Positions 33,014 through 35,687 of a stretch of 39,504 nt of DNA are shown here, piece after piece (within the stretch, counting starts at the first letter, position 1; the number at the start of each line of letters is the position of its first letter). Source of the stretch: Candidatus Rokuibacteriota bacterium (GTDB taxonomy: Bacteria > Methylomirabilota > Methylomirabilia > Rokubacteriales > CSP1-6). The translations under genes were made by a program, and so were the position numbers. The notes below the pieces were generated by a model. That model worked only from the letters and a program-made list of their open reading frames with translations, ran no database searches and was not told the origin of the DNA. The stretch lies in the NCBI GenBank assembly GCA_003221695.1, contig QHSX01000067.1, positions 1-39,504 of the forward strand, read 5' to 3'.

Positions 33014-33365
33014 CTCGTTTCCTCCTGGATGACGATGTCGCGCGATGAGCGCCGCCGCACGGCGCTCGTGGCGGGCGCAGCCTAGCACACGCCCCTCAGC
33101 CTGGCAAAGTGCGGTCGCGCGGTGTGTTGTCATTTACCCGCTGCCCTGACGCTGGACGGCAACTCGCGTCACCTTGGCATGCATGGTCCTCTGCCGCCAC
33201 CTCGAGAGGACACCACGCAGTCTTGAACGTGCGAGATCCTTGCGCTTCCGGCTACCGGGAGTCTCCGTTCGTGTTTCCGGATTGCCCTGCCACCCCTGGC
33301 ATTCGCCTTGCTCCCCGGAAGGTCAGTGTCGCGGCGAAGATTGCAGCCGGGAGGCGACGGACGCC
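33014..33365. other. divergent intergenic region of 352 bases
   Basis: No gene is credible here. The only structured signals I see are the promoter candidate for the hydrolase at 33079-33107 and GGGAGG at 33349-33354 as ribosome site for the regulator. I found no convincing promoter for the plus-strand regulator; TTGAAC at 33223-33228 has no -10 partner. Confidence 0.6.
33079..33107 (-). promoter_or_regulatory. candidate promoter for dienelactone hydrolase
   Basis: On the complement, TTGCCA (33102-33107, 5 of 6) and TAGGCT (33079-33084, 3 of 6) are 17 bases apart. The spacing is ideal but the -10 box is weak. Confidence 0.4.
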
Positions 33366-34162: not shown

Positions 34163-34921
34163 ATGGCTGCGTCTGACAAGATCGCCATCGTCACGGGCGC
34201 CGGAAGCGGAATCGGCAGGGCCGTCGCGCTTGCCCTGTTGCGAGAGGGCTACGCGGTCGTCCTCACCGGCCGTCGCAAGGACCTCCTGGAGGCGACGGCG
34301 CTGGCGGGAAAGTCGTCCGGCTCGCGGACGCTCGTCGTTCCGACCGACGTGAGCAATCCCGTGGCGGTCGGCGCCCTCTTCGCTCGGACGAAGGCGGAGT
34401 TCGGTCGGCTCGATCTGCTGTTCAACAACGCGGGGACCGGAGCCCCTCCCGTGCCGCTCGAGGATTTGAGCTACGAGCAATGGAAATCGGTCGTCGACAT
34501 CAACCTGACCGGCGCGTTCCTCTGCACGCAGGAAGCCTTCAAGCTCATGAAGGCCCAGGAGCCACGCGGCGGGCGGATCATCAATAACGGCTCCATCTCG
34601 GCGCACGCGCCGCGGCCGAACTCGGCGCCGTATACCGCCACGAAGCACGCGATCACGGGCCTCACCAAGTCGACATCGCTCGACGGCCGCAAGTACGACA
34701 TCGCGTGCGGTCAGATCGACATCGGAAACGCCGCGACCGACATGACGGCCAGAATGAAGAGTGGCGTCCCGCAGGCGCATGGGGCCGTCGCGGTCGAACC
34801 GACGATGGACGTCGAGCACGTGGCGCGCGCGGTCGTCTACATGGCGAGCCTTCCCCTGGATGCCAACGTCCAGTTTCTGACGGTCATGGCGACGAAGATG
34901 CCCTTCGTCGGGCGGGGGTAA
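34163..34921 (+). CDS. short-chain dehydrogenase/reductase
   Basis: A 252-residue classical SDR. Cofactor motif TGAGSGIG at 11-18, with TGRR (35-38) suggesting NADP preference. NNAG is at 88-91 and the catalytic set is Ser144, Tyr157 and Lys161 (PYTATK). The C-terminal segment departs from FabG-type endings: it reads [21 protein letters not shown], which resembles the YdfG/SerDH-like subgroup that oxidises beta-hydroxy acids. ATG 34163 follows GGAGGT (34150-34155). It may be transcribed with the REC-PilZ gene upstream. Substrate unknown. Confidence 0.92.
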
Positions 34922-34952
34922 GTCGCGGCGGACGGGAGGGTCAAACGCCCCC

Positions 34953-34979
34953 TTGACTACGTCCCCGACGCGGTATACG
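34953..34979 (+). promoter_or_regulatory. candidate promoter in front of a structured RNA
   Basis: TTGACT (34953-34958) and TATACG (34974-34979) are separated by 15 bases, shorter than optimal. A start near 34986 would place the 5' end exactly at the first base-paired segment of the predicted RNA. No coding gene on this strand follows. Confidence 0.4.
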
Positions 34980-34985
34980 AATACA

Positions 34986-35120
34986 AGCCTCAGCCCACTC
35001 ACCTTACCGGCCGCCGATGGCGGCCCCGTCCCGATGGGACCAAAGGTCTGTGGGCTGCTTTCTTGTTGAGTCTCGGAGCGAGCAGGACGAGGAGGAGGAG
35101 CGGCTCCTCCTCCTCAGGAA
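34986..35120 (+). ncRNA. candidate structured small RNA or 3'-end structure of pal
   Basis: The gap between an SDR (+) and pal (-) is full of perfect inverted repeats. A long-range stem CAGCCCAC/GTGGGCTG (34991-34998 with 35050-35057) continues inward, past a 2/2 mismatch, as ACCTT/AAGGT (35001-35005 with 35043-35047). It encloses two hairpins: GGCCGCC-GAT-GGCGGCC (35009-35025) and GTCCC-GAT-GGGAC (35028-35040). A 12-base-pair hairpin follows at 35089-35115. This is a closed three-way junction plus a terminator-like stem. The strand is not certain because the repeats are symmetric; the plus strand is favoured only by the upstream promoter-like sequence. I do not recognise a known RNA family (not tmRNA, SRP, RNase P or 6S). 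Confidence 0.45.
35089..35115. terminator. 12-base-pair hairpin downstream of pal
   Basis: A perfect 12-base stem of GAG repeats (35089-35100) pairs with CTC repeats (35104-35115) around a CGG loop. It starts 12 bases after the pal stop on the minus strand. No T-run follows on either strand, so it may end transcription with help, protect the mRNA end, or close the candidate RNA. Confidence 0.6.
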
Positions 35121-35126
35121 GCGGAC

Positions 35127-35687
35127 TTACCGCGCCTTCACCATGAAATGCGCGCGGCGGTTCTGGCCGTAGCAGTCTTCGCTCGACTCGCGGCAGAGGA
35201 GTCTTTCCTTGCCGTAGCTGATGATCGAAATCCGGTTCGACCGGACGCCCTGAGCGACGAGATAGTTCATCGACGCGCGCGCGCGCCGATCGCCCAGCGC
35301 GAGGTTGTACTCGGTGGTGCCGCGCTGGTCCGCGTGCCCCTCGATGAGAATCTGCCACTTGGGGTTGGACTTCAGCACCACGGCGTTTGCTTCGAGGACC
35401 TGCGCATCTTCCGGCCGGATATCGTACCGATCGAACTCGAAGTGGATATCCCGCAGGTCCCCCAGCGCCACGAATTCCTTCGGGTTGGGTCGGTCAGGGC
35501 TGCCGGGTGCACGCCCCGCCCCGGCGGCTCCGCCCATGGATCCGTCGGCGGCTCGACCGCCGTCCGTGGATCCCGGGGAGCCGGGCGCGGAGGCGTCCGA
35601 CGAGCCCGCCCACTTGGCGCAGCCGGCAAGAACCGGCGCCGATGTCAGCAGCAACACGAGAGCGATCCGTGAAAAGCGCTCGACCAT
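35127..35687 (-). CDS. pal: peptidoglycan-associated lipoprotein, Pal/OmpA family
   Basis: A 186-residue outer-membrane lipoprotein. Signal peptide with lipobox LAGC, lipidated Cys23. A flexible Gly/Ser/Pro/Asp linker (about 27-68) leads to the OmpA C-terminal domain (about 80-186): IHFEFDRYDIRPEDAQ, the peptidoglycan-binding IEGHADQRGTTEYN and LALGDRRARA, then ISIISYGKERLLC. It anchors the outer membrane to the wall. ATG 35687 follows GGGAGGAGT. Genes for TolA/B/Q/R, the usual partners, are absent nearby, so this may be a solitary copy. The Cys-x-Glu-x5-Cys region (RESSEDCYGQNRR) is typical of Pal. Confidence 0.92.
   Translation of the reverse strand: MVERFSRIALVLLLTSAPVLAGCAKWAGSSDASAPGSPGSTDGGRAADGSMGGAAGAGRAPGSPDRPNPKEFVALGDLRDIHFEFDRYDIRPEDAQVLEANAVVLKSNPKWQILIEGHADQRGTTEYNLALGDRRARASMNYLVAQGVRSNRISIISYGKERLLCRESSEDCYGQNRRAHFMVKAR

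Follow-up and report, generated by a model that had tools for sequence, protein, structure and literature searches.

Intrinsic terminators of the I-shaped kind, single hairpins without a U-trail, have been described, and so have clusters of hairpins that serve as terminators (PMC8355165). A search of the literature on branched terminators returned riboswitch and synthetic-RNA papers only. The element reported here occupies positions 34983-35066 of a 39,504-nt stretch of DNA from an uncultured bacterium of soil (Candidatus Rokuibacteriota); the whole stretch was analysed and is called the window below. It resembles I-shaped terminators in being a stable GC-rich hairpin that stands shortly past a stop codon and has no U-tract. 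However, I-shaped terminators are single hairpins, whereas this element is a branched three-way junction whose activity in termination is predicted. With hairpin-cluster terminators it shares the presence of several short hairpins directly past a stop codon, but those hairpins lie side by side and the ones in the element are nested inside closing stems.

A closing helix with two hairpins is also found in the three-way-junction aptamers of purine and 2′-dG riboswitches. In contrast to these aptamers, the element has no Rfam match, and its unpaired bases are not visibly conserved (3 of 24 changed between two close genomes). Moreover, with a length of 3 nt, its loops could not make the loop-loop contact that belongs to the purine/2′-dG riboswitch fold. 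The likeness nearest at hand is the 3′-end hairpin of the neighbouring pal gene, which belongs to the same lineage, has no U-tract and keeps its pairing while its sequence drifts. This hairpin is unbranched, and most pal relatives have one at its place; the junction, by contrast, is found in two genomes only.

RESULTS

Structure of the element

Two genes of the window converge on the element: an SDR-family oxidoreductase gene (34163-34921, plus strand) and pal, which encodes a peptidoglycan-associated lipoprotein (35127-35687, minus strand; TIGR02802 above cut-off). The plus strand of the element reads ACAAG CCT CAGCCCAC TC ACCTT ACC GGCCGCC GAT GGCGGCC CC GTCCC GAT GGGAC CA AAGGT CT GTGGGCTG CTTT CTTGT. 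An outer stem of 5 bp closes the junction by pairing ACAAG (34983-34987, identical in the congener described below) with CTTGT (35062-35066). Inside it, P1 is formed by CAGCCCAC (34991-34998) and GTGGGCTG (35050-35057), and P2 by ACCTT (35001-35005) and AAGGT (35043-35047), with a 2x2 internal loop between the two stems. The branches are the hairpins P3 (GGCCGCC-GAT-GGCGGCC, 35009-35025) and P4 (GTCCC-GAT-GGGAC, 35028-35040). All core pairs of the three-way junction at 34991-35057 are Watson-Crick, and the same fold is formed on both strands. A sequence-only reading of this DNA had described an outer 8-base stem, a 2/2 mismatch, a 5-base stem and two GAT-loop hairpins as one three-way junction, and every one of these parts was recovered.

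The junction core has a z-score of -5.5 and the 84-nt element one of -5.7, and none of 2000 dinucleotide shuffles was as stable. The element's absolute fold energy is less remarkable, as ~2% of the 84-nt windows in this stretch (69% GC) are as stable. Hence, its notable feature is the order of pairing and not the energy. Minimum free energy folds of the whole plus strand contained three perfect junctions, of which the element is the most stable, against 0 and 1 in two random sequences with the same dinucleotide content. The three-way junction at 34991-35057 is real and lies far beyond chance.

Past the junction stands a 12-13 bp hairpin (35089-35115, minus strand), directly 3′ of the pal stop codon. 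The sequence-only reading had nested it, as a 12-base hairpin, in the junction. It is a separate structure: in the congener a matching hairpin, whose loop differs and whose arms are shifted, directly follows pal far from the junction and has no junction beside it. Other pal relatives carry hairpins of different sequence at the same place and, as judged from these comparisons, 35089-35115 is pal's own 3′-end hairpin. On the other side, P1 begins 70 nt past the SDR stop codon, and merely a weaker fold is present between that stop codon and the junction.

Occurrence in other genomes

Relatives of the source genome were searched by blastn (99 genomes) and with a covariance model built from two copies of the element and run on 95 genomes of the class and phylum. 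The sole long blastn match, 92% identical over 132 nt (34949-35080), lies in a congener, isolate AR41 (our genome G001; contig QHSA01000137.1). All remaining blastn matches were short and GC-rich, and the inspected ones contained no junction. The covariance model found the junction in 2 of the 95 genomes, the source genome and AR41, with one copy in each, and two other congeners that were searched had none. A third covariance match, in genome G051, fell on tandem-repeat units with many broken pairs and was taken as chance. These repeats of ~100 bp (G051 C3, locus L061, 1360-1680) fold somewhat like the junction and account for the only further covariance matches (33 bits).

Viral contigs searched for the exact core and plasmids searched by distant blastn gave no match. 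A scan of 84,980 genomes with one 20-mer of the core returned only AR41 and one match in Halomonas, which the covariance model did not support. A diverged junction was detected neither in the 3′ flanks of relatives of the alcohol dehydrogenase ADH1 (see below) nor upstream of cupin relatives. Rfam models gave no match in the window at the gathering threshold or at a permissive one, the best chance matches being microRNA models on the pal hairpin (E ~1), in agreement with the earlier remark that the element resembles no known RNA family.

The homologous locus in the congener

In AR41, the gene order is pal, an ABM-like monooxygenase (opposite strand), a Rieske protein, ADH1, the element, a cupin, ADH2, a substrate-binding/cytochrome c protein and SDR (opposite strand). 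ADH1 and ADH2 are PQQ-dependent alcohol dehydrogenases. The substrate-binding/cytochrome c protein, named from its translation alone, is a probable fusion. The distance from the junction to either pal or SDR is 3.3 kb. The element begins right at the end of the ADH1 stop codon and P1 follows 12 nt downstream of this codon, ahead of the cupin gene.

A 6.8-kb block of AR41 (C190, locus L057, 225-6997), comprising the two PQQ-dependent alcohol dehydrogenases, the cupin, the Rieske protein and the probable substrate-binding/cytochrome c fusion, has no counterpart between SDR and pal in the window. Outside this block, the pal side on one hand and SDR and the region beyond it on the other are collinear between both genomes, at ~85-89%. 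In the window, both halves of the block are gone and the segment homologous to the ADH1-cupin intergenic DNA (34949-35080) is retained, 27 nt from SDR and ~5 nt from the pal hairpin. Its last 14 bases (35067-35080, minus strand) are a probable remnant of the ADH1 3′ end. The ADH1 stop codon, TAA in AR41, is TCA here, and with 4 changes these bases are more diverged than the rest of the segment. The best ADH1 match of the source genome is a paralog at 63%, and its best cupin match stands at 51%.

Since a further congener (G003) also has a PQQ-dependent alcohol dehydrogenase converging on its SDR gene, the comparison suggests that the block was lost in the source lineage rather than gained in AR41. 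A misjoin of the contig is possible in principle. With the block lost from the source lineage, the present neighbours of the element, SDR and pal, would not be the genes with which it arose.

Changes at paired and unpaired positions

Between the source genome and AR41, none of the 60 paired bases of the 132-nt segment has changed, compared with 10 of the 72 unpaired ones (Fisher P=0.0017). Within the element alone, the counts are 0/60 paired versus 3/24 unpaired (P=0.02). As a neutral rate we used four-fold degenerate sites in SDR and the 3′ part of pal, 32 of 190 of which differ (17%), and the chance of observing 0/60 changes at this rate is 1.6e-5. One other intergenic region is 78% identical between the two genomes. 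Neutrality fits both the unpaired bases of the element (P=0.41) and a promoter-like segment upstream of it (3/34 changed, P=0.15).

With paired bases unchanged and unpaired bases near the neutral rate, selection appears to act on structure. The single pair of near-identical copies is an indication of selection on pairing, and not on loops, junction strands or promoter. For the junction proposed by the sequence-only reading, the pairing is supported as real (0/2000 shuffles) and apparently selected (0/60 paired bases changed). Position 35049 is an unpaired T in the window and A in AR41, and allows an additional U-A pair there.

Folds at the 3′ ends of genes in the lineage

Strong folds are common behind relatives of both genes. 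The 3′ flanks of ADH1 relatives had z-scores below -2 in 13 of 18 cases (mean -3.06); of the control windows, taken from within the coding sequence, 1 of 18 scored as low. In three of the five ADH1 relatives without such a fold, the next gene and its ribosome site follow immediately. The flank of ADH1 in AR41 has a z-score of -5.0. Among pal relatives, a strong 3′ hairpin was present in 14/30, versus 1/30 controls. The hairpins of both families are GC-rich, mostly lack a U-tract, differ in sequence and occupy the position that the junction has in AR41. None of those found behind ADH1 relatives is three-way shaped or shares sequence with the junction. A terminator scan detected no classical (L-shaped) Rho-independent terminator, the element being followed by CTTTCTTGTT on the plus strand and by AGGCTTGTAT on the minus strand, neither with a U-tract directly after the stem.

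For this uncultured phylum, two regularities may be of use: promoters can be called with the pattern TTGAC-N17/18-TAnnnT, and strong hairpins that lack a U-tract are common at the ends of genes.

DISCUSSION

Our favoured explanation, to which we give a probability of about 0.58, is that the element is a branched transcript-end hairpin of ADH1, acting as a terminator or as a protector of the mRNA end, and orphaned in the window between convergent genes. In the ancestor shared with AR41, the junction would have formed the 3′ end of the ADH1 mRNA, that is, on the minus strand of the window. Once polymerase had passed the end of ADH1, the emerging transcript would fold up 12 nt past the stop codon, and the folded junction would stall or release polymerase and/or block 3′-5′ exonucleases. 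In the source lineage, the ADH operon would have been lost on either side and the intergenic segment would have stayed between the converging SDR and pal genes. There the junction may now end read-through from SDR on the plus strand and, on the minus strand, serve as a reserve for pal's own hairpin. Because all pairs are Watson-Crick, the structure folds on both strands and could act on both. We infer termination or protection activity, the terminator function from position and fold, as well as the direction of gene loss and the present use in the source genome.

The sequence-only reading had offered, as its alternative, that the minus strand carries the 3′ end of the pal mRNA. The idea of a 3′ end came closer to our explanation than its main proposal did, although the gene concerned would be the lost ADH1, pal having a hairpin of its own. 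The branching counts against the terminator reading, since no relative's hairpin has this three-way shape. In addition, the segment was kept while both of its flanks were lost, which could reflect an independent function.

A stand-alone small RNA of ~80 nt would have such a function. Transcribed from the plus strand, folded as the junction and ended by P1 and CTTTCTTGTT, it would act on a protein or in trans, and would have outlasted the operon through a use of its own. We consider this possible but unlikely. Its start would be TTGACT-N17-TA(C/G)GAA, a weak promoter-like sequence at 34953-34981 (plus strand; TTGACT-N17-TACGAA in the window). The -35-like TTGACTACG and TATA are retained in both genomes, what survived the double loss extends from the -35 through the U-rich tail, and the fold is exceptional for the 39,504-nt stretch. 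However, the lineage writes its promoters as TTGAC-N17/18-TAnnnT: in ~0.87 Mb of rokubacterial loci, both strands counted, TTGAC-N17-TAnnnT occurs 17 times against 0.66 expected. The sixth position of the -10 is thus mostly T, as 17 TAnnnT stand against 3 TAnnnA at N17, and two of these 3 are the element's own copies in the source genome and AR41. The hexamers at N17, TACGAA here and TAGGAA in AR41, both miss the final T. Of the TTGACT/TATACG pair that the sequence-only reading called promoter-like, TTGACT is present, but TATACG sits at a spacing of 15 nt, where TAnnnT is not enriched, the N17 hexamer departs from the lineage pattern, and the segment is not conserved beyond neutral expectation (3/34 changed, P=0.15). 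A weak promoter at 34953-34981 is possible, and we regard it as doubtful.

The conservation tells against a small RNA in other respects too. With 3 of 24 unpaired element bases changed, there is no visible protection of a seed or ligand-pocket sequence; the tail that is U-rich here reads differently in AR41 (CACTCTTGTT); and the other two congeners lack the element. The earlier proposal of a stand-alone RNA from TTGACT/TATACG is therefore not upheld, its -10 being off pattern and conservation being confined to paired bases. There is no good evidence for a new kind of regulatory RNA. A combination of both ideas, in which a branched 3′-end hairpin of the ADH mRNA became a genus-restricted, autonomous structured RNA gene and was kept independently after operon loss, has in our estimate a small chance of being correct. 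If true, it would be an unusual chance to see how a terminator can give rise to a small RNA.

A slimmer chance attaches to a minus-strand cis-regulatory leader of the cupin and ADH2 genes, resembling a riboswitch or attenuator, of which the source genome would hold a relic. The element of AR41 does lie in the ADH1-cupin gap, and, read along the minus strand, it has the start of the cupin gene downstream. However, it begins 12 nt past the ADH1 stop, is absent from cupin relatives at 60-79% identity, and shows no special conservation of unpaired bases. Moreover, ADH2 has its own promoter (TTGACA-N18-TAGCAT), and in the window no gene follows in the minus-strand sense.

A role at the level of DNA appears very improbable, whether the element is taken for a mobile palindrome of the REP or MITE kind or for a recombination hot spot through which the flanks were lost. 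The location of the element, exactly where the gene content of the two genomes differs, would suit it. Nevertheless, each genome holds a single copy, the other matches are short and GC-rich with no junction in those inspected, and neither a target duplication nor a transposase was seen. The copies also share the same relative place, so the element has not moved.

Least probable of all is a relic without present function, its hairpin yet to decay after a recent loss: although with one differing genome pair known, constraint before and after the loss is inseparable, the ADH1 remnant beside the element has by now lost its stop codon and changed at 4/14 bases, while paired bases are unchanged.

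A small protein starting at the ATG in the P3 loop was considered and rejected, its 17 codons in AR41 becoming 51 here with the stop not kept, and no other reading frame had both start and stop kept in the two genomes.

We return to the transcript-end hairpin of ADH1 as the favoured explanation. It illustrates how a fold that stands out statistically can still be a transcript-end hairpin of the usual sort, a question that comparison with neighbouring genomes can settle.

Two other folds of the window deserve mention. At 33205-33285, between divergent genes, a second three-way-junction fold has a 13-bp closing stem; this region is 78% identical to AR41, with changes and small gaps throughout, and the fold is probably due to chance. 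The most stable 84-nt plus-strand window of the contig, at -59 kcal/mol per 84 nt, lies at 35504-35600, where pal encodes its linker region.
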